From positions 1 through 32,525 of the forward strand of contig JAIPAP010000049.1 in the NCBI GenBank assembly GCA_021740045.1: DNA of 32,525 bases, in the 5' to 3' direction. Both the position numbers and the translations under genes were made by a program. A model generated the notes under the pieces. That model made no database searches. It was not told the origin of the DNA and worked only from the letters and a program-made list of their open reading frames with translations. Each line of letters opens with the position of its first letter. Within the stretch, counting starts at the first letter, position 1. Positions 1,022 to 23,690 of the stretch are shown here, piece after piece. This stretch comes from Bacteroidales bacterium (GTDB lineage Bacteria; Bacteroidota; Bacteroidia; Bacteroidales; JAIPAP01).

Positions 1022-2608
1022 TTACGGATAGATCAATTCTCCGTTTTCACTCATTTTGATCAGGTAGAATTCGCCGGGAACAGCATCGCCGATGTTGTTA
1101 ACCCATTCTCCACCAACCTTATGGAGCATGTTGCCTTCTTCATCCCTGGCAAATACGAAAATACCGTTGATAACTGATTCAAAGGCTATCTCTGCATCCA
1201 TAGGTTGTTGCGGCAGGTAGCTGGCAAAATTATAACCGGTTTCCATCAGGAGCGGGGTTGATTTATCCATCGCCTGACCCTCAAGTGTAATGGTGGCAGA
1301 ACCGGACATACCATCAATCTTGATCAGGTAGCCTTCTTCGGTATTCCATTCACCGATACCATTCACCCATTCTCCTCCAATTTTCTGGAGCATATTACCG
1401 TCTTCATCACGGACAAATTGAAGGTTCTCATTTAATATGTTTGAAAGAACCTCGGTCATATCCGGATTGTCGGGAATAATGTAGGATGAAACAAAATTGT
1501 AGCCGTTTTCGACGGTTACATCCTGTGATTCGGCTGTGGAAGCTTCTTCGAGGGCACAGAGTTCATCCACCCAGAATTCCTGTCCGCCCAGGCGAATGTT
1601 GTTGACTTCACCGGTTAGGGTTACCTCACCCCGTATTCCACCGGGAATGGAAGTAGTGGTTACCGTATAAGTCACTCCCGGAGCAATGTTGGTAGGCGCC
1701 GAAGCAAGTTCCCCTATATACAGGTCACCATCATTCACCTGGAAGTTTTCAAATCCACCGTAATCGGAAAATTCAAACGTTACCTGGTTGATGGTAGCCC
1801 CAACATCACCCACAGCAAAATCAACAGAAATATTATCGAGGTTAAGCGCCTGCAGATGGCCCATATTATCCATGGCATTACCAACCTCAGCTCTAACGAA
1901 AGCATTGTAATTATTACCGTCGGTGAATTCTGCAAGGATCACGGGGATACCCGATTCATTAAAAGCCACATCGCCCGGCGTGTTACCATAGTTGTTGCCC
2001 CATTTGGTTCCTGCGGTCAATGGCTCGTGAGTAACGCTGTAATCGCATTCACTCACACAAAGTTCATCAAGCCAGAATTCCTGGCCTCCAATATGAACAC
2101 TCTGTACCTCTCCGGTTAGGGTTACGATACCGTATACCCAATTACCATATGAATAGGTTACCACATCAAAGGTAACACCGGGCGCAATATTGGTGGGCGC
2201 TGATGTCAGTTCACCAATATAAAGGTCGCCGTTGTTGACTTTAAAATTCTCAAATCCTCCGTAATCGGCAAACTCAAATCTTACCTTGTTTGCACTGGAA
2301 GATGCTGAGCTTACCTCATAATTCATAGCAATGTTATCCAGTAATATCGAATTTCCGTTCCCGAAAACAACGCCGGCCGTATCGATCTCGGCTCTGTCGA
2401 ATGCCGTGTAATTGTTTCCATCGGTGAATTCCTGGAGTACCAGTGGAATACCCGATTCGGTGAAGGCTATATCTCCGGGAGAATCACCAAAGTTGCCACC
2501 CCATTGGGTTCCCAAAGATTGGTTATCGTGAGTTACCGAATAGTCACATTGTCCGTAAACTAATTGCGCAGCAAGCAATACCGTAAATAAAAGTAATACT
2601 CTTTTCAT
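1022..2608 (-). CDS. Secreted protein with two copies of a 165-residue domain and a tandem C-terminal module; function unknown
   Basis: I do not recognise a named family. The 528-residue product starts with a clean type I signal peptide (about residues 1-20, ending VYGQ). Two homologous domains follow at about 21-186 and 188-352. Each begins CDYSVTH, carries PGD(I/V)AF.ESGIP, DGNNY.AF.RAE, YGGFENF.VN.GDLYIGE and SAPTNIAPGV, and ends GGQEFW.DELC. The spacing of the cysteines and the aromatic, acidic content suggest a beta-sandwich, perhaps carbohydrate-binding (inference). Residues 363-448 and 453-528 are two copies of another module with a GNML.K(I/V)GGEWVN.IG core, also found at the end of the 1034-aa protein at 8702-11806. 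There is no T9SS sorting domain and no catalytic motif. It stands alone, with about 255 bp of AT-rich DNA upstream. Confidence 0.75.
   Translation of the reverse strand: MKRVLLLFTVLLAAQLVYGQCDYSVTHDNQSLGTQWGGNFGDSPGDIAFTESGIPLVLQEFTDGNNYTAFDRAEIDTAGVVFGNGNSILLDNIAMNYEVSSASSSANKVRFEFADYGGFENFKVNNGDLYIGELTSAPTNIAPGVTFDVVTYSYGNWVYGIVTLTGEVQSVHIGGQEFWLDELCVSECDYSVTHEPLTAGTKWGNNYGNTPGDVAFNESGIPVILAEFTDGNNYNAFVRAEVGNAMDNMGHLQALNLDNISVDFAVGDVGATINQVTFEFSDYGGFENFQVNDGDLYIGELASAPTNIAPGVTYTVTTTSIPGGIRGEVTLTGEVNNIRLGGQEFWVDELCALEEASTAESQDVTVENGYNFVSSYIIPDNPDMTEVLSNILNENLQFVRDEDGNMLQKIGGEWVNGIGEWNTEEGYLIKIDGMSGSATITLEGQAMDKSTPLLMETGYNFASYLPQQPMDAEIAFESVINGIFVFARDEEGNMLHKVGGEWVNNIGDAVPGEFYLIKMSENGELIYP
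1553..2548 (-). repeat. Internal duplication within the 528-aa gene (two ~165-residue units)
   Basis: Unit A spans about 2051-2548 and unit B about 1553-2047 (residues 21-186 and 188-352). They share long identical stretches such as GDLYIGEL and SAPTNIAPGV. Both strands of sequence comparison by eye show clear homology with some divergence, so this is an old in-frame tandem duplication. Confidence 0.8.
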
Positions 2609-7203: not shown

Positions 7204-8487
7204 TTAATGTTTAACGAGTTTTCTGCTTTTTACCAAGCCATTCATGTCTTCAATGTTCAGGATCACTATTCCGGGCTGAATATTTTCGACCGGCACTTGT
7301 AAAGTTGATTCACCGTTTGTTTTGGTTTCATAGAGCAGTTTTCCTGTAACATCATACAATTGAACAACTCTGGCTTTTTCCAGGTTTTCAAGGTAAAGAA
7401 CCTTCTTCACCGGATTTGGGTATGATTTTACATTTACCAGTAATGGCGATTCTTCAAGGCTGGTTCCCCCCATCAGATAGATATCATCGAAATAAAACAT
7501 CCCTGGAACAGAATGGCCTTCACCACCAAACTGAACCACCACCTTATCATAATTGGTGCTATCGGAAACCGCACTGAAATCAAACTCCAGGTCGATCCAC
7601 GTATCGAATTCCGTTACTTCGTGAAGGACCTCGGTTTGTGTCATCCAGGCATTACCACCCATTTGGCTGTCTTGTAGTTTAAGAGCAGCGGTTGGGGTAA
7701 GATCGCCGGAATAATCATTGGAAGAAGGAAAATAAACGCTTATTGAGAACACATTTCTGTTGCTCAAATCCATGCGATGTTCCAGTTCAAACTGAGCATT
7801 GGTCCATTCGAATTCGCCCGAGCGATCATATTCGGCCACATGGTTGGCGGGGTCGGTGGGGTCTTCAACCACAGGTAATTCGCCCATATCAGGATCCTGG
7901 AAGAACCACTCGGGAATGGTAGCCCATCCGTCATTTTCAAAATTATCCTGAACATCTTCTTCCATCAAAGGTTTTTCACCGCTTCCACCACCGTAACCGG
8001 GGCCTTCCACATCATCAAAATAAAATGTATTATCAGTGGTAGCCATAAAATCGAAGAAAATAACGATTTTATCATAGACGCCACTTTCGCCGTCCGGAAA
8101 TTCGAATTCCAGCTCAACCCATTCTTCGGTGCTTTCAACCGTGTCTGATACTTCAGTGAATGCTCCCGAGGCATTTTCCAGTTTTAAAAGCACTTCGTTG
8201 GCAATAGGTGCCCACACCTTCATGGTAAAGGTGTTGTACTCATCAAAATTCACCGTGCCGTCGAGCTCACAGAATACATGTGCCCATTGTTCGGGTGTGC
8301 GAACCCATTCAGCCACATTGGCACTGGTGTTAATCCCCGATTGGTCGGGATTGGCAACTACGGTTGGCGCATTTGGCCAGCCGCTGAATTCTTCGTTTTG
8401 ATTGTCATCAAAATCGCTGTACATGTATTGCCCCTGAACAAACAGGACCGTAAGCATAAATGCTAAAAGTGTAATTAAATGTTTCAT
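7204..8487 (-). CDS. Secreted two-domain, CBM-like protein with T9SS type A sorting domain
   Basis: The product (427 aa) is a predicted extracellular, non-catalytic binding protein. It has a signal peptide (1-20), a beta-rich domain at about 21-163 ending TFYFDDVEG, a second at about 177-339 ending FYFDDIYLMG, and a T9SS C-terminal domain at about 350-427 (SYPNPVKK, VQLYDVTGKLLYE, LNIEDMNGLVKSRKLVKH) that directs export and surface attachment. The FYFDD closing strand is common in carbohydrate-binding beta-sandwich domains, so glucan binding is inferred. Domain 2 is almost identical to residues 701-863 of the neighbouring 1034-aa protein, with about 14 differences in 163 residues by eye. It is the last gene of the PUL; 214 bp with a small hairpin separate it from the upstream gene. 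Confidence 0.8.
   Translation of the reverse strand: MKHLITLLAFMLTVLFVQGQYMYSDFDDNQNEEFSGWPNAPTVVANPDQSGINTSANVAEWVRTPEQWAHVFCELDGTVNFDEYNTFTMKVWAPIANEVLLKLENASGAFTEVSDTVESTEEWVELEFEFPDGESGVYDKIVIFFDFMATTDNTFYFDDVEGPGYGGGSGEKPLMEEDVQDNFENDGWATIPEWFFQDPDMGELPVVEDPTDPANHVAEYDRSGEFEWTNAQFELEHRMDLSNRNVFSISVYFPSSNDYSGDLTPTAALKLQDSQMGGNAWMTQTEVLHEVTEFDTWIDLEFDFSAVSDSTNYDKVVVQFGGEGHSVPGMFYFDDIYLMGGTSLEESPLLVNVKSYPNPVKKVLYLENLEKARVVQLYDVTGKLLYETKTNGESTLQVPVENIQPGIVILNIEDMNGLVKSRKLVKH
7471..7959 (-). repeat. Duplicated domain, copy 1 (partner at 9218-9706)
   Basis: This segment of the 427-aa gene matches 9218-9706 of the 1034-aa gene in the same orientation, with many identical runs at DNA level (for example around 7660-7690 and 9405-9435). 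Protein identity is about 91% by eye. Similarity falls sharply outside the domain. Confidence 0.85.
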
Positions 8488-8583
8488 TTCTCTATGTTTT
8501 TAAGTTAAACTTTGGGCATTTTATAATTCATACCCGTACTTATTTTTATTGATTGCCGGTTGATATTTATTGAATGAAACCCC

Positions 8584-8607
8584 CTGCCTGAACCGACAGT
8601 CAGGCAG
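8584..8607. terminator. Hairpin between the 1034-aa and 427-aa genes
   Basis: CTGCCTGA (8584-8591) pairs perfectly with TCAGGCAG (8600-8607) around an 8-nt loop. On the minus strand it is followed by a G-rich stretch and only TTTC, so it would be a weak terminator or an mRNA processing or stabilising structure inside the operon. Confidence 0.4.
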
Positions 8608-8701
8608 AGGATTTTACTCATATTTGATTTTTGGCTTGTATTATTCAAAATTGTGGATTAAAAATTACTACAATTCTTATTAAATAGCAACTGACATAAT
8701 A

Positions 8702-11700
8702 TTATTTAGCCGGATAAACCAATTCATCTTCATTATCCATGCGGATTAGATAGCCCTGTCCAGGCTCAAGGTCCCCGATGTTATTGATCCAGTTCGGCCC
8801 GACTTTACGCAACATCTGTCCCTGTGAATCACGGAGGAAATCCATGTTGTCCAATACGGTTTCCATAGCTATTTCAGCATCCATCGGATTCTCCGGCAAA
8901 TAACTGATAAAGAAGAAACCGACTTCCAGTGAGACAGGTGTTTGAGGATCGATAGCCATGCCTTCCACCATAAGTGCATCAGCGCTCAGCATCTTGAACA
9001 CATAACCTTCGGTGGTGACCCAATCGCCAATATTGTTGATCCAGTTCGGCCCGATCTTGCGTAACATATTACCATCGGAGCTACGGACAAAGTCGAGGGT
9101 TTCATTGTTGATCAGTTCCTCACACACGGCAGTCATATCAGCATTCTCAAAGCTCAAACCCGTTGAAACAAACTGGTAACCCAATTGAAGGCTAATGTTT
9201 TGCTGAACCTGGTTTTCCATCAGATAGATATCATCGAAATAAAACAATCCGGGAAAAAAATGGCCTTCACCGCCACACTGAACCACCACTTTATCATAAT
9301 TAGTACTATCGGATACCGCACTGAAATCAAACTCCAGGTCGACCCAGCTATCAAATTCGGTAACCTCATGCATGACTTGGGTTTGTGTCATCCAGGCATT
9401 ACCACCCATTTGACTGTCTTGTAGTTTAAGAGCAGCAGTGGGCGTGAGATCACCCGAATAATCATTGGAAGAAGGAAAATAAACACTTATCGAAAATTTA
9501 TTTCTTTCGCTTAAATCCATACGATGTTCCAACTCAAACTGGGCATTGGTCCATTCGAATTCGCCCGAGCGATCATATTCTGCCACATGGTTGGTGGGGT
9601 CGGTGGGATCTTCAACCACAGGTAATTCGCCCATATCAGGATCCTGGAAAAACCACTCGGGAATGGTACTCCATCCGTCGTCTTCAAAATTATCCTGAAC
9701 ATCCGCTTCCAAATAAGGTTTCGGTGCAGCAACGGTCGTAAATGTTGCGCTTTGTGCCGGGATCAAATCACCACCCTGGTAGCGGATCACTACATCATTA
9801 AGGGCAACATAATAATCCTGTTCGTTTTGCAAGTTGTTATCAGGCGTGAGGATAATTGCTGTTTTCTCTGCATTGATCTCACCTGTGAAAGGAACAGGTG
9901 CCCCACCGGCATCGGTTTCGTTAAAGGTAACGATTGAAGGAATATTGCCATTGGTGATTTCATTGCCGTCCGCCATTTCCACAGGCAATGAGAAGGTGAG
10001 CGTAGGTGATACATCTACCGGAACATCAGTAGCTCCATCCTGGGGATAAAAAGACAAGGTGCCTGTTCCACCGGCCTCTTTCCAAAAATACCAGTTATCG
10101 AACCAAATATCACCATTGCCTTCTACCTTGAATTGGATAATGTCGGATAGATTCACCTCCGGTGTAAAATATTCCATCGGAATATCAACACTCACCCAGG
10201 TTTCAGGCTCTATATCAAACACATATTCCTTCTCCTGTGGGCCAGGACTGATCAGGAAGAAACCAAGATCGGTTGAATTGGCGGTCCAGAAATCAACATG
10301 GAAGTAGTCATATTCCGAAACATCGAGGGTGACGAGCTCTGTACCTTGGTAATTCAGATTTTCATACATCAATGTGTTGTTTCCAGCTATTTCATAATCT
10401 ACGGTTACAATGGTAGACTGCCCCCAGAACGGATTGAAGTTGGTTCCGGCCACATCCTCATAAGCATCGCTGTAAATAGAAATTACATCTTCAGCGGCAT
10501 GAGGCGGAATTGGGGGTACGGTAGTTGGTTCGGGTCCTGCTATGGTAAAGTTGATGTTGTATGTCAGCGTGGTTGTTCCATCTTCGGCGGTTACCACCAC
10601 TTCAGTTGTTCCAGGCAGCTCAGGAGCATCATTCACCACATAAGTCGCATCAGGATCGTTGGTGATGGCAGTAACCGTGGGTACTTCAGTAGTGCCTTCG
10701 GGTAATTCCACATCATAGTTCAGCACATTGGGAGAAAATCCCGGAACCGTGGTTCCGTTATACTGCAAATCACTTAAAGTAGCATCCGAACCGGGAGGTG
10801 TTCCCTCTTTCCAGAAATACCAGTTGTCGAAATATACGGTTCCGTTACCCACCACTTTGAACTGGATGACATTCGAAAGATCAACCGGGGGCACAAATTC
10901 TGACAAAGGAATATCCACGCTCACCCAGGTTTCATTTTCGATGGGCAAGGAATAAGCCGTTTCAGCACCGGGGCTGATCAAATAAAAATCCAGGGTAGTG
11001 GAATTCGGTGTCCAGAAATCAACATGTAAATAATCATACAGCGAAACATCTTGGCTGGTAAACTCCGTACCCTGATAATTCAGGTTCTCATACTTGAGGG
11101 TATAATTGCCGGCAGCTTCATAATCCACGGTAACGATGGTAGACTGCCCCCAGAAGGGATTGAAGTTGGTTCCCGGAATGTTGTCATACACTTCGGTATA
11201 TATGGAAATGACATCGGCCGGGTCCTGGGTTGGTACCGGTGGTACTGTTGTTGGCTCAGGTAAGGTAGTTACTTCGCCGTCAGGAACTTGGAGGTTGTCA
11301 AAATAAACAATGTTATCCTGCGGTCTTGGATCAAAGTCTAAATCAGGTATAATTACAATCCGGCTATAGGTATTTCCTATTTGCTCTGAAAAATCATAGG
11401 TCAGCTCTTCCCATTCACCTGTAACCGTGTTGGACTCCTGTATCTCAATCGCAGGACTCAGTCCTTCAAATTTAATCGCCACATTGCTGATGACTTCTTT
11501 ATAAACCATGATCTTAACAATTGAGTTGTCCTCATCAAAAGTGAATTGTCCGTCATCATCGGTAAAGGAAAGTGCCCAGGGCTGCCCGTTTTGCCGCGCA
11601 ATAAATTTAGCCACGGTTTCGCTTGTGTTAATCCCTCCGCTAACAGGATTAGCAATAAATTCAACCGGTGGATTGTCGTCATTCTGATCCACTACCCATT

Positions 11701-11806
11701 CCCAGTCGGCCCCCACTCCCGGTGTTTCAAAATCTACGGTGTGGGTGCTTTGTGCAAATGCCTGCATTGCAAAAAGCATTAATACTCCTAAAAGTAATTT
11801 TTTCAT
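8702..11806 (-). CDS. Large secreted multidomain glycan-binding protein (no catalytic domain)
   Basis: The 1034-residue product has a signal peptide (1-19), then: a beta-rich domain (20-175); a P/T linker (180-196); domain B1 (197-335, with FNPFWGQSTIVTVDYE and YFDNWYFWKE); a cadherin-like beta-sandwich (about 340-423, SDATLSDLQYNGTTVPGFSP); a second linker; B2 (438-577), a repeat of B1; a Big_5/SbsA-type Ig-like domain (about 583-693); a domain nearly identical to one in the 427-aa protein (701-863); and a tandem C-terminal module (873-1031) shared with the 528-aa protein. B1-type domains with a closing YFDN-YFWK strand are CBM-like in appearance. No glycosidase motif is present, so it is probably an extracellular glucan-binding protein of the laminarin-type PUL. 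It has neither a lipobox nor a T9SS tail, so its attachment is unclear. Confidence 0.8.
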   Translation of the reverse strand: MKKLLLGVLMLFAMQAFAQSTHTVDFETPGVGADWEWVVDQNDDNPPVEFIANPVSGGINTSETVAKFIARQNGQPWALSFTDDDGQFTFDEDNSIVKIMVYKEVISNVAIKFEGLSPAIEIQESNTVTGEWEELTYDFSEQIGNTYSRIVIIPDLDFDPRPQDNIVYFDNLQVPDGEVTTLPEPTTVPPVPTQDPADVISIYTEVYDNIPGTNFNPFWGQSTIVTVDYEAAGNYTLKYENLNYQGTEFTSQDVSLYDYLHVDFWTPNSTTLDFYLISPGAETAYSLPIENETWVSVDIPLSEFVPPVDLSNVIQFKVVGNGTVYFDNWYFWKEGTPPGSDATLSDLQYNGTTVPGFSPNVLNYDVELPEGTTEVPTVTAITNDPDATYVVNDAPELPGTTEVVVTAEDGTTTLTYNINFTIAGPEPTTVPPIPPHAAEDVISIYSDAYEDVAGTNFNPFWGQSTIVTVDYEIAGNNTLMYENLNYQGTELVTLDVSEYDYFHVDFWTANSTDLGFFLISPGPQEKEYVFDIEPETWVSVDIPMEYFTPEVNLSDIIQFKVEGNGDIWFDNWYFWKEAGGTGTLSFYPQDGATDVPVDVSPTLTFSLPVEMADGNEITNGNIPSIVTFNETDAGGAPVPFTGEINAEKTAIILTPDNNLQNEQDYYVALNDVVIRYQGGDLIPAQSATFTTVAAPKPYLEADVQDNFEDDGWSTIPEWFFQDPDMGELPVVEDPTDPTNHVAEYDRSGEFEWTNAQFELEHRMDLSERNKFSISVYFPSSNDYSGDLTPTAALKLQDSQMGGNAWMTQTQVMHEVTEFDSWVDLEFDFSAVSDSTNYDKVVVQCGGEGHFFPGLFYFDDIYLMENQVQQNISLQLGYQFVSTGLSFENADMTAVCEELINNETLDFVRSSDGNMLRKIGPNWINNIGDWVTTEGYVFKMLSADALMVEGMAIDPQTPVSLEVGFFFISYLPENPMDAEIAMETVLDNMDFLRDSQGQMLRKVGPNWINNIGDLEPGQGYLIRMDNEDELVYPAK
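9218..9706 (-). repeat. Duplicated domain, copy 2 (partner at 7471-7959)
   Basis: Residues 701-863 of the 1034-aa protein correspond to residues 177-339 of the 427-aa protein. Both copies keep the QDPDMGELPVVEDPTDP stretch and the terminal FYFDDIYLM. Confidence 0.85.
10076..11218 (-). repeat. Internal B1/B2 domain repeat of the 1034-aa gene
   Basis: B1 occupies about 10802-11218 and B2 about 10076-10495. Both contain GTNFNPFWGQSTIVTVDYE and YENLNYQGTE, with a cadherin-like domain between them. The DNA repeats are visible near 10420 and 11145 (identical GTAGACTGCCCCCAGAA on the plus strand). Confidence 0.85.
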
Positions 11807-12015: not shown

Positions 12016-13827
12016 TCATTGAATGACTAATTTTGCATGGTACTTTGGCAATCCTTTTTTGTCACTGATTATCAAAAAGTAGATTCCCTGCGGCAAACCT
12101 GATACATTGATCCTTCTAGAAGGAAGGGTGTGATTTACCTGTTTCGCCGGTTGCCCGGCAGCATTGTATATGGTGATATTTACCGTTTCCTTTTGATTAC
12201 CGCCCAGGTGAAAATGTGTTTTAACCGGGTTGGGAAACACCTTTATCTTTTGAGTTTGACGCAACTCACTTACAGCTTCCGGTTCGGCATTCATTTTCAG
12301 AAAATCAATCCATAAAGAATCGGATGCGTTATCTATCCCATGAAATCCGTAATTCAGATAAATCACAGCTTTTCGAATCCTTTCATTATTAACGGTTTCG
12401 CCAAAATTTGGAGCACCGGCTGCCCAATTACCCGAGAAGTTAAAGTGGTAGTCATGATATTGTCCGTCACTAACTGGATCAATTGTAAAAACCGGTGCTT
12501 TGTTGGTTTGAAGCCCCTGCTGGTCCACGAGATCTATACGCATATTTACAGAGCCGCTTTTGTTAAAAGTCTTTAGCCTCACTTGCATACTTTCATGATC
12601 GGAGAGGTCTATGGGGGTTTCAAAATCAATAATGAACTTTGGCCAAAGATCAGGATCTGTATTTTGATAGGAAACATTGAGATCACTGGCCACTTCGCTG
12701 AAAGAAAACATAATCTCTTCGCTGTTGGGATTAGAGATATTTTCGATATTTCCGTCATCAAAATCATCCAGCACATGGTCATCTCCTTCAGGAATGGTTA
12801 AAAGCTTAACCGGTAGTTCGAAGTTGTAAGTTTCATCATTCACTGTCAGGTCCAGCGAAACATTCCCTTCGGTATTTCCCCAATTAACGGAAATGGTATT
12901 TGTTCCTTGTCCGGAAACAATCTCGGCATCATCGGGCACCGACCACTCAAATTCCGCATCCACCACATTTGATACCGAATACTCCACTTGCCCGGCATAA
13001 GGTGGGATATATTCTTCTCCGGTGATTTGAAGTTCATCGATTTCTTGATATACGCGCACGTAATCCACCTCCATTTGAACCGGGAAAATGGAATCGTCTA
13101 CGCCCTGTGCTCCTCCCCAATTGCCTCCTATAGCAACATTAAGCAAAAGATGGAATCGCTTGTCGAACGGCCACTTCTGCCATGTGCCTTCATTTTCAAA
13201 AGTAAAACGCAGTTCACCATCGACGAAGAACTCAATCTCATCCTCCGTCCACTCGATAGCATAAACATGGAACTGTTCTTCGGCCGTTTCCAGGTAGGTA
13301 GACTGGCTTTGCTCGGTTCCGTTTAAATGGTTGTAAGCTTGCGTATGCACGGTTTGGTGGATTACATTGGGGTCATACCCCACGTATTCCATGATATCAA
13401 TTTCGCCTGATGAGGGCCATCCGCCGTATTCCCAATCGGTTGGCAGCATCCATACGGCGGGCCAGGTACCCCTTCCTGCAGGCACTTTAGCACGCACTTC
13501 GATTCGTCCGTATTTCCAGTCGCCTTTGTTTTTGGTGATCAAACGTGCAGAGGTATATTCATTGCCTGAATAATTTTCTTTATGCGCTTCGATAATCAAT
13601 TTGCCATTCTGCACACGGGCATTATTTGTATCGGCTTCGGTATAAAACTGAAGCTCGTTGTTGCCCCAGCCGCTTCCACCGACATCATAGTCCCACTTTT
13701 CGGAATCGGGCAAACCGCTGTAATCAAATTCATCCTGCCACACCAAAACGGTCGACTGGGAGACGCCCAGCAGGGGCGCCACCAGCAGAACCGCAATCAA
13801 ATATATTTTATACAACCAACTCATCAT
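12016..13827 (-). CDS. GH16 endo-beta-1,3-glucanase (laminarinase-type) with PKD-like, CBM-like and T9SS domains
   Basis: This is a secreted endoglucanase cutting internal beta-1,3 (or mixed 1,3/1,4) glucan bonds with retention. The product has 603 aa. After a signal peptide (about 1-24) the GH16 domain spans 27-262. Its active-site motif GEIDIMEYVG gives nucleophile Glu142, Asp144 and acid/base Glu147, within WPSSGEIDIME as in bacterial laminarinases. Conserved LLNVAIGGNWGG and MEVDYVRVYQ close the domain. A PKD-like/Ig domain (about 265-343) and a CBM-like beta-sandwich (about 350-515, starting DDFDDGN) follow. The tail (about 525-603: KVFPNPVK, ITIYNAAGQ, LPQGIYFLIIS) is a T9SS sorting domain. 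The start lies 3 bp after the upstream GH16 stop codon, so the two are co-translated neighbours. Substrate preference between laminarin and mixed-linkage glucan is not decided by the sequence. Confidence 0.92.
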   Translation of the reverse strand: MMSWLYKIYLIAVLLVAPLLGVSQSTVLVWQDEFDYSGLPDSEKWDYDVGGSGWGNNELQFYTEADTNNARVQNGKLIIEAHKENYSGNEYTSARLITKNKGDWKYGRIEVRAKVPAGRGTWPAVWMLPTDWEYGGWPSSGEIDIMEYVGYDPNVIHQTVHTQAYNHLNGTEQSQSTYLETAEEQFHVYAIEWTEDEIEFFVDGELRFTFENEGTWQKWPFDKRFHLLLNVAIGGNWGGAQGVDDSIFPVQMEVDYVRVYQEIDELQITGEEYIPPYAGQVEYSVSNVVDAEFEWSVPDDAEIVSGQGTNTISVNWGNTEGNVSLDLTVNDETYNFELPVKLLTIPEGDDHVLDDFDDGNIENISNPNSEEIMFSFSEVASDLNVSYQNTDPDLWPKFIIDFETPIDLSDHESMQVRLKTFNKSGSVNMRIDLVDQQGLQTNKAPVFTIDPVSDGQYHDYHFNFSGNWAAGAPNFGETVNNERIRKAVIYLNYGFHGIDNASDSLWIDFLKMNAEPEAVSELRQTQKIKVFPNPVKTHFHLGGNQKETVNITIYNAAGQPAKQVNHTLPSRRINVSGLPQGIYFLIISDKKGLPKYHAKLVIQ

Positions 13828-13830
13828 CTG

Positions 13831-14646
13831 TTATTCCTTTTTGTACACACGCACGTAATCCACAATCATTTCCTGGGGGAAGATAGAATCATCCACCCCT
13901 TCTTTACCTCCCCAGTTACCACCAACGGCTACATTGAGCAGGATGTGAAATCGTTTATCAAAGGGCCATTCTTTGAATGTTTTATTCTCATTTTTAAAAG
14001 TGAAGAAATGGATGTCATCAAAAAACACGCGATATTCATCCTCTTCCCATTCCAGGGTATAGGTGTGAAACTCCTCATAAATATTTCTCACTTTTATTCC
14101 CTGGGTTTTATTCGTTCCCTTTACATGGTTGTATGCTTCTGTATGTGCTGATGCAAAGACTGAATCGGGGTTATAACCCACATGTTCCATAATGTCAATT
14201 TCGCCTGATGCAGGCCAGTCGCCATATTCCCAGTCTGTGGGCAGCATCCAGATGGCCGGCCAAACACCACGTCCCTCCGGCAATTTGGCGCGGACCTTTA
14301 TCTTCCCATATAACCAATCACCTTTCTCTTTGGTCCGCAGCCGTGCCGAAGTAAAATCTCTACCCCCCATCTTTTCCTTACGCGCAATAATGTGCAGGTA
14401 ATCGCCATCGACCTTCACATTTTCAATTCGTTCATGGGTATAGTGTTGCAGTTCGTTGTTCCCCCATCCGTAATCATTACCAGCTGTATCATAGCTCCAC
14501 TTTTCAGCATCAGGCAGGCCATTGTAATCAAACTCGTCATGCCATACGAGTTTATATCCATCCGGTACCGGAATTTCTTTCTTTCCATTTTCGCAAGAAG
14601 CAGCAAGAAAAGCGAGGACAATCAGAAATCCTGTTATTTTTTTCAT
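13831..14646 (-). CDS. GH16 endo-beta-1,3-glucanase lipoprotein
   Basis: This is a single-domain GH16 laminarinase-type enzyme, likely anchored at the outer membrane. I chose the ATG at 14646 over an upstream ATG at 14697: the product then begins MKKITGFLIVLAFLAASC, a textbook lipoprotein signal with Cys18, whereas the longer version would put 17 extra residues before it. The catalytic motif SGEIDIMEHVG gives Glu149, Asp151 and Glu154 in the 271-aa form. The domain is closely related to the one in the next gene (shared MLPTDWEYG, WPFDKRFH and GVDDSIFP), suggesting tandem duplication with different export routes. It carries no accessory domain. It is preceded by a long hairpin that separates it from the SusE-position gene. 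Confidence 0.92.
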   Translation of the reverse strand: MKKITGFLIVLAFLAASCENGKKEIPVPDGYKLVWHDEFDYNGLPDAEKWSYDTAGNDYGWGNNELQHYTHERIENVKVDGDYLHIIARKEKMGGRDFTSARLRTKEKGDWLYGKIKVRAKLPEGRGVWPAIWMLPTDWEYGDWPASGEIDIMEHVGYNPDSVFASAHTEAYNHVKGTNKTQGIKVRNIYEEFHTYTLEWEEDEYRVFFDDIHFFTFKNENKTFKEWPFDKRFHILLNVAVGGNWGGKEGVDDSIFPQEMIVDYVRVYKKE

Positions 14647-14777
14647 AAATTTATTCTTTAAAATAGCCGCTAATTTTAAAAGTCCGGTTTTCAACAATAC
14701 GGTAGGCAGAAACCTGCTCTTTCGCCGTGATTGAATGACAACATTAAAAAAAGTTCTATAGTAAAAAAGCAGTCTAT

Positions 14778-14822
14778 TATCACTAAGGTGCGGCCGGTTT
14801 TCCCGGCCACACTTTAGTGATA
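14778..14822. terminator. Long hairpin between the PKD lipoprotein gene and the GH16 genes
   Basis: The stem joins TATCACTAAGGTG plus GGCCGG on the left with CCGGCC plus CACTTTAGTGATA on the right around a T-rich loop, with a wobble and a mismatch. An AT-rich run with six Ts (14825-14830) follows on the plus strand; on the minus strand the T-run is about 9 nt away. In the PUL it would be a partial terminator or an mRNA 3'-end stabiliser after the SusCD-SGBP genes. Confidence 0.65.
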
Positions 14823-14828
14823 AATTTT

Positions 14829-16283
14829 TTATTCAAAAATAAGGTTGCGAACATAAATCGTAGCGCCAACTTCATGTCCTCCGCCACCAAAACGCAGGTA
14901 CATCTGGTCTAGATCAGTCCGGTTCAATACCTCTGTAGTCGACAGGTCAAATGTATAAGTATGCCATTCGCCTACAACGAGATCATCTCCTTCGATAAGA
15001 TAATACTCATTATCTGTCCACCATTCTTCAGTTTGGCTCATATCGGCAAAACCGAATTCAAGATTTTTCTGAAGATCGGTACCATCGAAGTCAATATCAG
15101 CGGGAACATAAACATCAACTGATATTGTTGTGAAGTTATCATATTGAATGTCTTTAGGCTCAGGGCTTGCCTGGAACATAAGCTCCTGGTATTGAACGCC
15201 TTCTATTCTGGTAAATTCACCCACCTGGGCTGTGGCATCTAAAGGATCTTCAACACCGAATTCTACCGAAGAACCGGAAGCGATGGTATCGATTGTTGCC
15301 ATATCGGCATCATCTCTTGAGGCAAATGTTATAAACATTTCATTCGGCGTAATATCTTCGAGGTCTTCTCCCCACTCCGGTTCTTCAGTTACCAAATCAG
15401 GCTCTAAAGAAGGATCGGAATAGTTTACATAAGTAAAGTCCCAATATAAATCCGCATCTGCGTAATTATAAGAGATGACCATCAAATCATATCCTTCGTG
15501 TTCTTCAATGGAGACAATATTAAACGTTCTGCTGTCTTCAGGAACTATTGATTCGCCGGAAGTTCCAAGCTGCGGCATTCCTATCCAGGCGCCCTCACCG
15601 ATAAGCGTAACTTCGCCTGCTTCAGCATCGTATTCATATTCATGTGTACCGCTTAACCATGCACTAACATCATCGCCTTCGCTGTTAACCATATTATCAG
15701 CAATTGCTTCAAAGCAAGTGCCTACCACATCGGTTCCGCCAAATACAGCTTCTTCTCCCCAGAAGACGCCATTATCATTGAATTCGAATGTGCCATCGAA
15801 ATTGAAGGTGAACTCATGCTTGTATACACAAGGCCGGCTACCATCATTCGAGAGCGACCACCAAATACGTGCCTCGTCGGGATTGGGACCTACACCCATG
15901 CTGGTTTCTTCGCGATAAAGTTTCCATGTTTTGGAATCGCTTCCAGCTAGTTGATTGGAACCTAAGCTAATCGTTTTTTTAACGTCAGTGCTCACATCAT
16001 CGGCATTTGTTGCCGTTAAAACCACATCATAGGTTCCTCCTTCTGAATATTCGTGAACAGGATTTTCCTCAGTTGAGGTTTCCCCGTCGCCAAAATCCCA
16101 CAAATAAGTCTCAGAATTTGTTGACTTATTCGTAAATGTCACCTCCAGAGCATTGTCTTGGCTGACTTCATAGTCGAAATCGGCAAAGGGCTCTGCTGCT
16201 GGATCATCATCTTTTTCACACGCGGTGAACATACCAAGCATTGCTATCATTGCAATACCTAAAATTAACTTAATTTGTTTCAT
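14829..16283 (-). CDS. PKD-domain surface glycan-binding lipoprotein (SusE position)
   Basis: This is a predicted outer-membrane surface glycan-binding protein that works with SusCD to capture glucan. The ATG at 16283 gives a lipoprotein signal ending LGMFTAC; ATGs at 16295 and 16355 are alternatives, the last adding an unlikely extension. Numbered from the longest form (508 aa): lipid-anchored Cys46; PKD domain about 55-131 with the YLWDFGDGETS signature and ENPVHEYSEGGTY; a central beta-rich region about 138-325, beginning GSDSKTWKLYRE, like the lipocalin/SusF-type middle parts of such proteins; and a C-terminal CBM-like domain about 335-508 ending GATIYVRNLIFE. No catalytic motif is seen. 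It directly follows susD, the usual place for the PUL's binding protein. The specificity is inferred from the GH16/GH3 neighbours. Confidence 0.85.
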   Translation of the reverse strand: MKQIKLILGIAMIAMLGMFTACEKDDDPAAEPFADFDYEVSQDNALEVTFTNKSTNSETYLWDFGDGETSTEENPVHEYSEGGTYDVVLTATNADDVSTDVKKTISLGSNQLAGSDSKTWKLYREETSMGVGPNPDEARIWWSLSNDGSRPCVYKHEFTFNFDGTFEFNDNGVFWGEEAVFGGTDVVGTCFEAIADNMVNSEGDDVSAWLSGTHEYEYDAEAGEVTLIGEGAWIGMPQLGTSGESIVPEDSRTFNIVSIEEHEGYDLMVISYNYADADLYWDFTYVNYSDPSLEPDLVTEEPEWGEDLEDITPNEMFITFASRDDADMATIDTIASGSSVEFGVEDPLDATAQVGEFTRIEGVQYQELMFQASPEPKDIQYDNFTTISVDVYVPADIDFDGTDLQKNLEFGFADMSQTEEWWTDNEYYLIEGDDLVVGEWHTYTFDLSTTEVLNRTDLDQMYLRFGGGGHEVGATIYVRNLIFE

Positions 16284-16405
16284 AGTAATTCTCATTTTTA
16301 GATTAACAAATATGTGTTGATTGTTTTGTTTTCCTTTCAAATAAACCGTTTTCATATTTATAGCTGTTAGCTTAAAGCTTTTTGAGAATTTCCCAATTCA
16401 GCTAT

Positions 16406-17923
16406 TTAATAATTATCATTTTGTTCCAGTTCCCCGTTAGAGTTGTCAATTTCTGATTGAGGAATCGGAAATACTTCATGTTTCCCTTCAATAAATCCAA
16501 GCTCACCCAGTTCGCTGGCCGCATCACCCCACCGAACGAGGTCAAAAAAGCGATGTCCTTCCATGGCAAGTTCCAGCCTGCGCTCCAGTTTGATATTATC
16601 CATGGTCACAGAGCCCAGAGGGTCAAGCATAGCACGCTCACGCACCTGATTTACCAAGGGTGAGGGATCGCCTGTACCGGATTGCAGATAAGCTTCAGCA
16701 CACATGAGAAGCACATCAGCATAGCGAATCATGCGTTCATTCGTCTCAAAGTTCCATTCCGGGTCTACCTCTGAAGTAATACTTGCCCAGGGCGCACGTT
16801 TCTTGCTAAACCACCCGGTATATCCTTCGTTTTGTTCCCATCCACTGGCACCAATCTCTGTAAGGAATTCTTCGCCATAGGCGGTACCGTATTTTCTTGC
16901 CGAATCACCTGCCGCGTCATACGCTGCGATCAGGTCTTGTGATACCATGTCAAAACCCCAGCCGGCTAATAGCGTATCGGTTGAGATTCCGCGGGGACCT
17001 GACATCTGAACATCGATGTTACCGCCGTTGACACGACCGTTACCCCAGTCGCCTCCCCGGTCAATATTGGCATATTCGATTTCAAATATGGATTCAATCC
17101 CGTTTTCATGGCTGTAACGCCAAATATCATCGTAATTATCTTCCAAATCATATCCTGCGTTAATCACCTGCTCAAACTCACCCGCAGCGAGTTCATAATA
17201 CTTATTTGCAGATTCCTGGAAATCATACTCCTGCTGATAATAAGGTGAGGCCATATACAGGTATACTTTACCCAATAGCGCATTTGCAGCACCTTTGGTA
17301 GCCCTGTAAAGTTCCATATCAGAAAGTGCCGATTTTGCCGGTAAATCATCGGCGGCTTCACTCAAATCATTTATAATCTGAGCGAAAACTTCCTCAGCAG
17401 GGTCCCTTGGCTGATTATATTCATCAGGACCTAAAGTACCGGTTATCAATGGTACATCACCAAAAAAGCGCACCAATTCAAAATAGAAATAGGCTCGCAG
17501 GAATTTGGCTTCAGCAATATATTCTACCGAATTTTGAGAGGTTTCCGGATTGGCATTCGCCAGAACCACATTGGCCCGGTAAATCCCATAGAAATCTCTT
17601 CGCCACAGCTGTAACACCGCAGGATTAGTGGGTACCGTATTAAAATCACCGATTTCATGGTATTCCGGACGGTCTCCAGTACCTCCACCAACTACCTTTG
17701 CATCATCACTAGGAAAATTTGCCAAAAAATAGTAAGAAGACCAGCCACTGTAATATTTCGGCTGCAAAATAGAATAAGCAGCAACCAGCCCGGAAAAAAT
17801 TTCCTCTTCGGTTTCATAGTAGTTCGTTTCAAATTTTTGCCCGACCGGATCCATATCGAGCCATTGCTTTTCGCATGAAGTTGCGAAAACGATAAGCAAA
17901 CTAAATAGAACTATCTTTTTCAT
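16406..17923 (-). CDS. susD: SusD/RagB-family nutrient-binding outer-membrane lipoprotein
   Basis: The lid protein of the SusCD importer binds oligosaccharides at the surface and closes over the SusC barrel. The ATG at 17923 gives MKKIVLF and a lipobox FATSC (Cys17), preferable to the 18-residue extension reached from 17977. Family features: EKQWLDMDPVGQ after the cysteine, AEAKFLRAYFYFELVRFFGDVPLI (TPR-like helices, about residues 150-175), AANALLGKVYLYMA, and the C-terminal ERRLELAMEGHRFFDLVRWGDA signature followed by FPIPQSEID. The length is in the family range. It follows susC with a 77-bp gap. 'susD' is a family label, not orthology to the starch gene. Confidence 0.95.
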   Translation of the reverse strand: MKKIVLFSLLIVFATSCEKQWLDMDPVGQKFETNYYETEEEIFSGLVAAYSILQPKYYSGWSSYYFLANFPSDDAKVVGGGTGDRPEYHEIGDFNTVPTNPAVLQLWRRDFYGIYRANVVLANANPETSQNSVEYIAEAKFLRAYFYFELVRFFGDVPLITGTLGPDEYNQPRDPAEEVFAQIINDLSEAADDLPAKSALSDMELYRATKGAANALLGKVYLYMASPYYQQEYDFQESANKYYELAAGEFEQVINAGYDLEDNYDDIWRYSHENGIESIFEIEYANIDRGGDWGNGRVNGGNIDVQMSGPRGISTDTLLAGWGFDMVSQDLIAAYDAAGDSARKYGTAYGEEFLTEIGASGWEQNEGYTGWFSKKRAPWASITSEVDPEWNFETNERMIRYADVLLMCAEAYLQSGTGDPSPLVNQVRERAMLDPLGSVTMDNIKLERRLELAMEGHRFFDLVRWGDAASELGELGFIEGKHEVFPIPQSEIDNSNGELEQNDNY

Positions 17924-18000
17924 TTTTATATAAATTTTTGTTCCTCTTTTATTTTTCATTTTGAGGTATAATATCACTTCTGTTTGGTTTTAATATCACC

Positions 18001-21000
18001 CTAAATAGTAACTTTTGCCCCAAAACTTATAATTCTTGATCGCGGATACAGACCCCGATCCACACCAATACTGCTACCACCGTAACCTCCGGTATTTCCA
18101 ATCTCAGGATCACCGGGATATTTTGTTAACAGAAACAGATTCTGACCTGATACAAAAACACGCAATTTCTCAACTTTAACTTTATCAGTTAATCTGTGAG
18201 GCAGGGTATAGCCCAGTTCTGCAGATTGCAGACGCACAAAAGAACCATCGAACACAAACAAACTGTTATGAGAGAAGTTGTTGTTCAAGTCATCAATTGT
18301 TATTTTTGGAAAATCAGCGGTATTGTTTTCCGGAGTCCATGCATCCTCGTAGAAAAACGCCGGTTTGTTATTCTTAGCCAAATCAGTGCGATAGGCACCA
18401 AAGTAGGTATCAACTCCAGTGCGGGCATTGAAAAATAAATTCAAATCAAAGCCTTTATATTGGAACGAAGTAGATAGGCCGAATGTCCATTTGGGATGCG
18501 GATTTCCGATCATGGTCTTATCCGATTCTGTTATTTGACCATCTCCATCAATATCTTTAAATTTTACATCTCCGGGTTCTGCTCTGGGTTGAATTAAATC
18601 ACCTTCCTCGTTTGTATAATTCTGAACTTCCGCCCAGGAGCTGAAAATACCGTCGTCCTCAAAACCATAAAAGTGCCACATAGGCTTTCCTTCTTCCGCT
18701 CTTGTAATGGCTCCGGTAGTTCCTAAATTGGCGCCTAATAAAACGGACGCCTTATTCCCGATATAAGTAACTTCATTTTCTAAGTAGGAAGCATTTGCTG
18801 ATATATCGTAAGAAAAGTCCGCAAATTTTTTCTTTAGTCCCAATTCAAGTTCTACACCTGTATTCACAACATCGCCTGCATTAACCAAAGGCTGATCGTT
18901 ACCAACATAAAGGGGAACCGGCCCTGTTGTGATCAAATCAATTGTGGTTTTCTTATAATAATCAGTAGACAGGGTTACTTGGCTATCAAACAAATAAAGG
19001 TCAAAACCTACATCAATTTGTTCACTGGTTTCCCAAACAAGATTCGGGTTCGCTAATCTCGCCGGCTCTGCCCCGGTAAGTTTGTTTCCACCACTCAAAT
19101 AATAACTCGATTCAGCATTGCTTATAATGGTTGATACATAGTCGAAATTCCCCAGCGAACCAATTGAACCGTTACGCCCCCAACTGGCACGCAGCTTTAG
19201 GAAATCAATAGCTGCAGGCAATTGGAATTCTTCATTTGTAACAACCCAGCCTAATGAAACTGAGGGGAAATACCGGTATTTATTTCCTTCAGCGAGTTTT
19301 GAAGAACCATCGGCCCTGAAAGTAGCATTTAACATGTATTTCTCCTGGTAATCATATTGAACACGTCCAAAATAGGAAAACAACCTGTTTTCATCGCGAT
19401 ATCCACCTGCTGCTGAACGGGTAGTATCACTAAGGACTGCATTCAGTACCGCAAAATTCCAGCTTTCCTCCTGGAGTACTTCTCCATACCCATTCAGATT
19501 GAAGTGGTTGTATTCCCTGGCAGTCATACCGGCCATAAAATTCATGGAGTGGTCACCAATACTTTTCGAATAATCCGCCACATTTTCTAATTGCCAGGTA
19601 TACCATTTGTCGGTTGACTGACCTGTGTTGGTTCTATAGTTATAATTGATTGAATGATAGTAATACTTAGGTGTCCAATATAGCGAATTGCCATATGAGA
19701 GATCAATATCATAACTCGACCGGATATTTAAGTTTTCCAGCGGTTTTAATTCGGTATAAAAACTAGCCACTACCTTATCTTGTTGCCATCGGTTATGATC
19801 ATTATACATTTGCGCAACAGGATTGACGATTTCATTTTGCACATAAGGCGACATGCCGAAATACCCCTTATCGCCCGGAGCTTTCAAAGATGAACTCTCC
19901 GGGTTGCTGAAATTGTCATAAATCTGGGGGAGATATTTATCCGGCAGGTTATTAATGCTATCAACATAAACCTGTGTTAGCGGGTCTATTGCCATTGCAT
20001 TGCTAATTACTCCACCAAATTCATTATTTTCGTTAATATTCTTTCTATTCAAATTTGTATAGGATATCCGGGTTCCTATTTTCAACCAATCTTTCACGTC
20101 ATGATCCAGATTTAGACGCGCCGTAGTACGGTTGAAATTCGCTTTATCGCCTCCAACTATTCCATCTTGATCATAATATGAGGCAGAAGCATATACATTG
20201 GTTTTTTCAGAACCGCCTTCGAAAGACAAATTATGCTGTTGCATGGGCGCAACCTGGAATATTTGATTCATCCAGTCTGTTCCTTGGCCCAAATTATCGG
20301 GGTTACTTTCCAGCCAATCAGTCTCTTTAAAATAGTCGGCATACTGTTGAGCATTCATTACCTCAACATAATTTACGGCCTCTTGCCATCCATTGCTAAA
20401 GCTATAATTGATTTTAGACTCTCCCTTATCTGCTGATTTTGTTGTAATAAGAACAACGCCGTTAGCCCCTTCGGCTCCGTAGATGGCCGCTGAAGCAGCA
20501 TCTTTCAGTACTTCAACCGATTCAATATCGTCGGGGTTTAAGTAGTCCATTCCCCCTGTCCGCATTCCATCTACGATGAATAGCGGATCGGAATTCAAGT
20601 TACTGCCTGTTCCCCTGATACGTATGGTCATATTTCCACCCGGGGAGCCGGACTCTTGCATGATATTAACGCCGGCTGTTTTTCCTTGAATAGACTGTTC
20701 GATACGAGACTGCTTCATGTCTATATCTTCTGCAGTCATCTTTGAAATCGATCCGGTTACAAGGCTTTTCTTTTGGACGCCATAACCTACTACCACAAAC
20801 TCTTCAATCGATTGCGCCGTAGGTTTCAAACTAACATTAATGGTAGTCTTGTCACCTATTTCCACTTCTTTTGAGCTATAGCCTACAAAAGAAAATTTTA
20901 TAGTTTCTGCTTCATCAGGAACTGTAAGGGAGTATTTCCCCTCGGTATCGGTAACAGTGCCTGTAGAAGTCCCCGGCAGGAAAACATTCACACCCGGAAG

Positions 21001-21108
21001 CGACTCCTGCGTGTCAGCACCTGTTACCACACCTTCTACAATCTTTTGGGCATATCCGAAATGCAGCCCCAAAAGCATCGCAAAAAATACTGTTACAAGT
21101 TTTCTCAT
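18001..21108 (-). CDS. susC: SusC/RagA-family TonB-dependent outer-membrane transporter
   Basis: The 1035-aa TonB-dependent barrel imports glucan oligosaccharides to the periplasm using energy from TonB-ExbBD. It has a signal peptide (1-20, ending GYAQ), then a carboxypeptidase-regulatory-like domain (about 22-95, VEGVVTGADTQESLPGVNV and GKYSLTVPD). A TonB-box-like EEFVVVGYG at about 103-111 leads into the plug domain (about 115-225), with IRIRGTGS, DPLFIVDGM and DAASAAIYGAEGANGVVLITTK. The barrel follows and ends with a terminal aromatic-rich strand (SRIISFGAKVTI). The length is normal. Only 22 bp separate its start from the GH3 stop codon upstream, implying co-transcription. 'susC' is a family label. 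Confidence 0.96.
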   Translation of the reverse strand: MRKLVTVFFAMLLGLHFGYAQKIVEGVVTGADTQESLPGVNVFLPGTSTGTVTDTEGKYSLTVPDEAETIKFSFVGYSSKEVEIGDKTTINVSLKPTAQSIEEFVVVGYGVQKKSLVTGSISKMTAEDIDMKQSRIEQSIQGKTAGVNIMQESGSPGGNMTIRIRGTGSNLNSDPLFIVDGMRTGGMDYLNPDDIESVEVLKDAASAAIYGAEGANGVVLITTKSADKGESKINYSFSNGWQEAVNYVEVMNAQQYADYFKETDWLESNPDNLGQGTDWMNQIFQVAPMQQHNLSFEGGSEKTNVYASASYYDQDGIVGGDKANFNRTTARLNLDHDVKDWLKIGTRISYTNLNRKNINENNEFGGVISNAMAIDPLTQVYVDSINNLPDKYLPQIYDNFSNPESSSLKAPGDKGYFGMSPYVQNEIVNPVAQMYNDHNRWQQDKVVASFYTELKPLENLNIRSSYDIDLSYGNSLYWTPKYYYHSINYNYRTNTGQSTDKWYTWQLENVADYSKSIGDHSMNFMAGMTAREYNHFNLNGYGEVLQEESWNFAVLNAVLSDTTRSAAGGYRDENRLFSYFGRVQYDYQEKYMLNATFRADGSSKLAEGNKYRYFPSVSLGWVVTNEEFQLPAAIDFLKLRASWGRNGSIGSLGNFDYVSTIISNAESSYYLSGGNKLTGAEPARLANPNLVWETSEQIDVGFDLYLFDSQVTLSTDYYKKTTIDLITTGPVPLYVGNDQPLVNAGDVVNTGVELELGLKKKFADFSYDISANASYLENEVTYIGNKASVLLGANLGTTGAITRAEEGKPMWHFYGFEDDGIFSSWAEVQNYTNEEGDLIQPRAEPGDVKFKDIDGDGQITESDKTMIGNPHPKWTFGLSTSFQYKGFDLNLFFNARTGVDTYFGAYRTDLAKNNKPAFFYEDAWTPENNTADFPKITIDDLNNNFSHNSLFVFDGSFVRLQSAELGYTLPHRLTDKVKVEKLRVFVSGQNLFLLTKYPGDPEIGNTGGYGGSSIGVDRGLYPRSRIISFGAKVTI

Positions 21109-21130
21109 AGTTTATTTGTTTTGATTTTTC

Positions 21131-23431: not shown

Positions 23432-23458
23432 CCAAAATCAATTCTAAATTTGAAAAGA

Positions 23459-23489
23459 CAAACTTATATCAGACTTAAGCACCAAACAA
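23459..23489 (-). promoter_or_regulatory. Candidate promoter of the PUL operon
   Basis: On the minus strand 23466-23459 reads TAAGTTTG, an exact match to TAnnTTTG. TTG at 23489-23487 gives a 20-bp spacer, close to the Bacteroidota -33/-7 arrangement. Transcription would start near 23452, leaving a 5' leader of about 20-40 nt before the GH3 start. Confidence 0.5.
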
Positions 23490-23499
23490 TTTTTCCAGC

Positions 23500-23593
23500 A
23501 CATCTAAACCTCATCATTCATCATTGACCCATACATCTTTATTACATCACCTATCTGATTATCAAGATGATTTTATTTCTCATTACTACATCA
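23500..23593. promoter_or_regulatory. Motifs (A/T)CATC(A/T) spaced in multiples of 11 bp upstream of the PUL promoter
   Basis: Plus-strand 6-mers start at 23500, 23511, 23533, 23544 and 23588, at intervals of 11, 22, 11 and 44 bp, so they face the same side of the helix. They lie just upstream of the -33 element and could be half-sites for the adjacent HTH regulator. The area is AT-rich and one extra out-of-phase match exists at 23518, so chance is possible. Confidence 0.35.
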
Positions 23594-23690
23594 TTTATTA
23601 CAACGGCATCATGTATACCCCTACATTGGGTAGTTTTAGTAAAGCTGTAATTTTTCTTAGCAGTAAAGGTTAAATAATAAACCTATCAAA

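Follow-up and report, generated by a model that had tools for sequence, protein, structure and literature searches.

A two-unit beta-rich domain of exported Bacteroidota proteins found at the C-terminal position of T9SS sorting tails

The closest described counterparts of the domain reported here are the C-terminal signals of the T9SS. The type A sorting domain (PF18962, TIGR04183), a compact Ig-like 3+4 beta-sandwich of about 75 residues, forms the very end of exported proteins in Bacteroidota. The T9SS signals comprise type A, B and C tail families (as outlined in PMC10202324), the type A tails have two motifs near the end, D (GxY) and E (a basic residue) (as summarised in PMC11969387), and T9SS cargo is commonly catalogued through the known C-terminal tails (for example in PMC6247017 and PMC11969387).

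The module described below shares with the type A tail this terminal place, behind similar kinds of N-terminal domain, but it is about 160 residues long and built of two units, it lacks the GxY...K/R ending, and it often lies upstream of a genuine tail. The type B and C signals (TIGR04131; NF033708, cl41395) offer a parallel, since they show the T9SS to be served by C-terminal signals of more than one family (as outlined in PMC10202324), but the 16 proteins of the source genome that end in the module have neither NCBIfam model among their listed families. Fib_succ_major (PF09603) follows the module in five tail-less proteins of that genome and is a separate domain. Choice-of-anchor is a name given to domains that precede assorted sorting signals, not to the signal itself; one module-ended protein consists mainly of choice-of-anchor V (NF041895, E 1e-31) and the module, and by the meaning of the name the former is the piece before a sorting signal rather than the signal.

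The window and its module proteins

The stretch of DNA analysed (the window) is contig JAIPAP010000049.1 of Bacteroidales bacterium GCA_021740045.1, 32,525 nucleotides long, and the genome to which it belongs (3.9 Mb in 161 contigs) is referred to here as the source genome. Two intact open reading frames, those of proteins A and B (Table 1), close with a module of two tandem units of about 80 residues each, at about residues 359-528 and 869-1034, respectively. The initial annotation had described such a shared C-terminal module, and the comparisons bear this out: BLASTP of protein A residues 345-528 against protein B residues 855-1032 gives 46.5% identity over 185 columns (E 5e-48), and the six unit-unit comparisons among the two proteins score 20-44 SD above the mean of 500 shuffles. 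The placement of the module at the very end of both proteins also holds, with the module stopping 0 residues (protein A) and 2 residues (protein B) before the stop codon, and the two copies (1025-1513 and 8711-9184) are about 7.2 kb apart, against the estimate of about 7 kb. Two neighbours, the 427-aa protein and GH16-b, carry T9SS tails as had been stated, matching PF18962 (E 7.4e-10 and 1.3e-10) and TIGR04183 (E 2e-9, 37.3 bits and E 7.7e-12, 45.0 bits); proteins A and B match neither model in the Pfam and NCBIfam scans.

Table 1. Features of the window relevant to the module; positions are those of the window
Feature	Position	Strand	Basis or remark
Protein A coding sequence, 528 aa: signal peptide, two ~165-aa repeats, terminal module	1022..2608	-	Open reading frame; signal-like N-terminus and repeats read by eye
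Protein A, N-terminal repeat region	1556..2548	-	Relatives in five other genomes end tail-like, not in the module
Protein A, module unit 1 (residues ~366-446)	1271..1513	-	Unit comparison, profile, alignment
Protein A, module unit 2 (residues 447-528), reaches the stop codon	1025..1270	-	Unit comparison, profile
Protein B coding sequence, 1034 aa: Cadherin-like, Big_5, domains similar to those of the 427-aa protein, terminal module	8702..11806	-	Open reading frame, Pfam, comparison
Protein B, domain directly upstream of the module (residues 696-863), 90% identical to residues 172-339 of the 427-aa protein	9218..9721	-	
Protein B, module unit 1 (residues ~875-953)	8948..9184	-	Unit comparison, profile, alignment
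Protein B, module unit 2 (residues 954-1034), reaches the stop codon	8705..8947	-	Unit comparison; modelled alone
427-aa neighbour coding sequence: shared domain, then T9SS type A tail	7204..8487	-	Open reading frame, Pfam, TIGR04183
427-aa protein, shared domain (residues 172-339)	7471..7974	-	Comparison with protein B
427-aa protein, T9SS type A sorting domain (PF18962), at the position held by the module in protein B	7216..7422	-	
GH16-b protein, T9SS type A sorting domain (for comparison)	12052..12240	-	PF18962, TIGR04183

The adjacent genes of protein B and the 427-aa protein (window 7216-11806) contain, under the domain that the two proteins share, a 505-bp stretch with 88.9% DNA identity and no gaps, likely a duplication or conversion within a glycan-use cluster. 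Window positions 12016-26630 encode two GH16-type proteins, a SusC/SusD-like pair, a PKD-type protein, a GH3-like enzyme and a large sensor-like regulator, and this region looks like a beta-glucan utilisation locus (GH16-b assigned by model, the remainder by eye).

Distribution, architectures and predicted fold

The source genome has 43 protein matches to the module, corresponding to 41 loci, and a second Bacteroidales MAG (MAG15; G336, JAEINX; 4.2 Mb) has at least 141 among the 150 of 161 candidates that were scored, an unusual expansion of one undescribed domain. A narrow profile matches in six of 40 other genomes of the order; across a phylum sample of 296 genomes, the source genome included, 20 are positive with this profile and 28 with a broader one, with at most 12-13 candidates scored per genome.

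The 41 loci of the source genome fall into three main architectures: 16 modules close their protein and have no T9SS tail, 19 precede a linker domain and then a tail, five precede Fib_succ_major, and one is cut by the contig end. The module is thus internal at 24 of the 41 and is not always a terminal signal. The linker domain, about 140 residues around GGNPADPVYTIYLEPG...GDEIAAFDGDKLVGS, has no Pfam match in the ten tailed proteins scanned, and an extra domain or stretch lies in between in three of the 19 tailed copies. A 2017-aa protein (L164:950-7000) has seven significant copies of the linker domain, of the GDEIAAFDGDKLVGS type, together with the module and a tail. In the five Fib_succ_major proteins (L157, L159, L168, L167 and L040) the module directly follows the signal peptide and precedes one or more PF09603 domains, which lie outside the module, and there is no tail; one further protein has PF09603 upstream of linker and tail. 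PF18962 has 150 matches in the source genome, which means that the module is absent from most tailed proteins.

Of 64 ORFs in other genomes, 16 have 0-10 residues beyond the module, 45 have 190-350, one has another length and in two the length is open. One of the 16 (L119) is an artefact, a gene piece with an internal TGA, and was left out of the terminal class, as was an ORF ending in a tail fragment (L107) from the terminal count; the remaining 15 terminal ORFs come from eight further genomes with eight different genus codes, and seven of them are weak matches (six in G004, and L262 in G196). From MAG15, where loci were collected by a contig scan with strict consensus patterns and the best 80 of 124 were kept, 100 ORFs were classified: 22 end in the module, 53 count as tailed from their length, 16 have a Fib_succ_major-type motif (with a tail as well in some) and nine are unassigned. 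Terminal copies are therefore a recurrent minority over all genomes. The C-terminal position about which the initial annotation asked is seen in 16 of 41 source-genome loci and not in most matches elsewhere, where 45 of 64 continue for 190-350 residues; that most matches might be followed by a normal tail, which it had named as an outcome against its proposal, is what was found over all genomes, though the terminal class is real.

The other domains of the terminal proteins include FG-GAP, YCF48-type BNR, right-handed beta-helix, pectate-lyase-like, Endonuclease I with Lamin Tail Domain, PCMD and choice-of-anchor V. The Endonuclease I and Lamin Tail Domain protein (L042:3600-6137), with the module at its end, is an exported nuclease without a tail. 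Most terminal proteins begin with a Sec-type signal peptide, often ending before Gln (by eye), and the lipobox pattern is absent from the first 45 residues of the 16 terminal proteins of the source genome, one of which is N-terminally cut, one a 102-aa fragment, and two with a start codon well ahead of the likely signal peptide. The 102-aa fragment (C51) is counted among the 16 and lies outside the 49 terminal ORFs used in the homology and motif tests below.

An alignment of 37 of the 41 source-genome modules has 18 invariant columns across both units, and the conserved positions include Trp, Asn and Tyr. The units of distant members read approximately GWN(L/I)(I/V)S...VKN..G..Y.P....N.IG.W....GYQ and align over their whole length with those of the window. 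No Pfam or NCBIfam model scores above cut-off within the module of protein A or B, and Pfam searches with 37 and 31 module sequences (cut-offs displayed for the first member only) gave at best E 0.0008, with at most eight members per family and a mixture of unrelated families. Identity with a known domain, which the initial annotation had considered in the form of one with an unrelated role, was rejected: Pfam, PHROGs and PDB sequence searches gave weak scattered matches and NCBIfam none in the module of the two window proteins. A phage origin was likewise set aside, the protein B module being without a match in phage records. No description of the module was found in the literature surveyed at the level of titles and abstract openings.

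The suggested structure prediction yielded a confident fold. AlphaFold2 models the two-unit module (from an alignment of window and MAG15 modules, 49 rows) with pLDDT 96.0 and pTM 0.89, as strands and short helices, and unit 2 of protein B alone (39 rows) with pLDDT 91.3. The best Foldseek matches in the PDB are weak (E 0.03 for the module, 0.34 for unit 2), which does not imply a new fold; the best VIA-align values are Z 4.1 for the module (rmsd 3.1, 69 aligned) and Z 4.4 for unit 2 (rmsd 2.9, 68 aligned). The module is an undescribed beta-rich domain in two units that occurs in exported multidomain proteins of Bacteroidota, mostly towards their C-terminal end.

Module and tail on the same passengers

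Protein B and its 427-aa neighbour have 168 residues in common that end at the same residue, after which one continues with the module and the other with PF18962. Judged from their sequences, the two form a natural domain swap. For the N-terminal repeats of protein A, a search of 295 genomes, the source genome included, gave relatives in five others, and the five proteins inspected close with a tail-like C-terminal domain (PNP...GIY...K, by eye) with no module seen. A small set of 44 ORFs with a tail but no module contains homologues of 20 of the 49 terminal-module ORFs from the collected loci, and none of the other 29. For 11 of these 20, the homologous stretch ends no more than 15 residues from both the module and the tail; for the remaining nine the ends do not coincide. 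As three of the 11 match the same short subject domain and two match a single subject, about eight cases are independent, three of them FG-GAP proteins. The same boundary test on proteins with both module and tail gives five of 37 (Fisher P 0.002 against 11 of 20, with members that are not independent), so module, linker and tail together can also occupy the site of a plain tail. Within the source genome, seven of ten FG-GAP_3 frames whose C-terminus lies on the contig end in a tail (one of them also with the module) and three in the module, an eleventh being cut, and of eight YCF48/BNR genes four end in a tail (one also with the module), three in the module and one in neither. In several proteins of the terminal class, by these alignments, the module stands exactly where a homologue has its T9SS tail. 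The proposal that the module is an alternative to the tail stands to this extent, with a recurrent terminal class in several genera that in several cases lies at the site of a homologue's tail; the further possibility it raised, that the two exclude one another, does not, since 19 of the 41 source-genome copies are tailed.

By motif, the terminal modules are not disguised type A tails. GxY with a basic residue near the end is present in none of the 49 terminal-module ORFs versus 133 of 144 tail ORFs, GxY alone in one versus 138, and a basic residue in the last eight in 19 versus 142, the tail ORFs being biased towards the 16 source-genome tails from which the tail model was built. PF18962 has no match in 15 of the 16 terminal proteins of the source genome, the C51 fragment lying outside the Pfam scan, and neither TIGR04183 nor TIGR04131 is listed for any of the 16 (NCBIfam, E 0.1). 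Truncation or frameshift of a former tail was considered and rejected: there is no same-strand tail or linker remnant within 900 bp downstream (360 bp for one) of the 16 genes, and the sole tail-like signal there (C36:1378) is on the opposite strand.

The terminal state appears to be kept in some lines and to change in others. Seven terminal proteins of the source genome have a best match in MAG15 to their N-terminal parts, of which three are terminal (43-58% identity over 195-491 columns) and four longer after the module, and for 13 non-terminal proteins the best match is longer in nine, terminal in one and module-less in three; these are best matches within a set picked around modules and not proven orthologues. 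The four longer matches, together with the one tailed protein with a terminal match, indicate that the state also changes between relatives. On a module tree the terminal label requires 24 changes, compared with a shuffled mean of 32.4 and with none of 500 shuffles as low, and it is this clustering, set against 24 changes, that points to both persistence and change; well-supported branches force only three changes, with 77 of 137 inner branches open. A single clade of terminal modules is not seen, terminal and tailed labels being mixed on this poorly resolved tree.

Possible roles of the terminal module

The position of the module in the terminal class leads us to favour, tentatively, the reading that it does the tail's job there and acts as a C-terminal sorting or retention domain. 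Because it occupies the tail's site, it may be another way to sort or hold proteins at the cell envelope. The terminal module would then fix the protein's final place, as the tail does, the simplest mechanism being that it docks the exported protein to a partner in the outer membrane or at the surface; the proteins might travel through the T9SS translocon or by another route, or be retained on the inner face of the outer membrane. SprA is present in all ten genomes tested, the source genome included, in two of which (G013 and G396) no terminal module was seen, and, with the lists compared by eye, it is found in all 28 module-positive genomes of the 296-genome sample, 68 of which have no SprA match (hypergeometric P 4e-4, kinship ignored). 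With SprA in 135 of the 140 genera sampled and the majority of modules in tailed proteins, this co-occurrence says little about the terminal class.

We prefer this reading to one that is itself quite possible, namely that the module is a plain structural or spacer domain that has no sorting role, in proteins that lost or never gained linker and tail and are periplasmic or exported by an unrelated route. Its internal position at most source-genome loci (24 of 41) fits such an accessory domain, as do the mixed labels on the tree, the longer MAG15 best matches of four of seven terminal proteins, and the lengths seen in other genomes, which fall largely into two ranges, 0-10 and 190-350 residues (16 and 45 of 64), as if a linker and tail cassette comes and goes. 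The lack of tail or linker relics downstream speaks against it, as does the persistence of the terminal state in three of seven MAG15 best matches at 43-58% identity, and loss of linker and tail alone does not yield the exchange with a tail where relatives are found without the module altogether. That the module is instead kept for binding a ligand (glycan, calcium, peptide or another module), whatever the export route, we regard as improbable: protein B does lie beside GH16 genes and a SusC/SusD-like pair (the latter by eye) and shares a domain with a CBM_4_9-bearing neighbour, and the conserved Trp, Asn and Tyr positions are a further point in its favour, but the partners are very mixed, ranging over FG-GAP, YCF48, Endonuclease I with Lamin Tail Domain, beta-helix, PCMD and choice-of-anchor V. 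A very divergent T9SS signal recognised by PorV, the type A shuttle, would fit the shared position and SprA in the ten genomes tested, and, judged by eye, the final 25 residues of unit 2 (PGEGYLVKM...) bear a loose likeness to the GxY strand of the tail; the 0 of 49 against 133 of 144 for GxY with a basic residue, and the redundancy that module and genuine tail would have in one protein (19 of 41), make this highly improbable.

Extending the favoured sorting or retention role, the module could represent a further class of Bacteroidota C-terminal envelope-sorting or anchoring domain, without the type A end motifs, interchangeable with the type A tail on shared passenger domains and greatly expanded in two Bacteroidales genomes, a broader claim that we put forward as doubtful. 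If module-ended proteins do reach the surface, the cargo lists of many Bacteroidota would be incomplete, including those for glycan-use clusters such as that of the window. The adjacent pair of protein B and the 427-aa protein makes the sorting question directly testable, and if the module merely holds proteins in the periplasm, the same pair would show a passenger re-addressed by a changed end.
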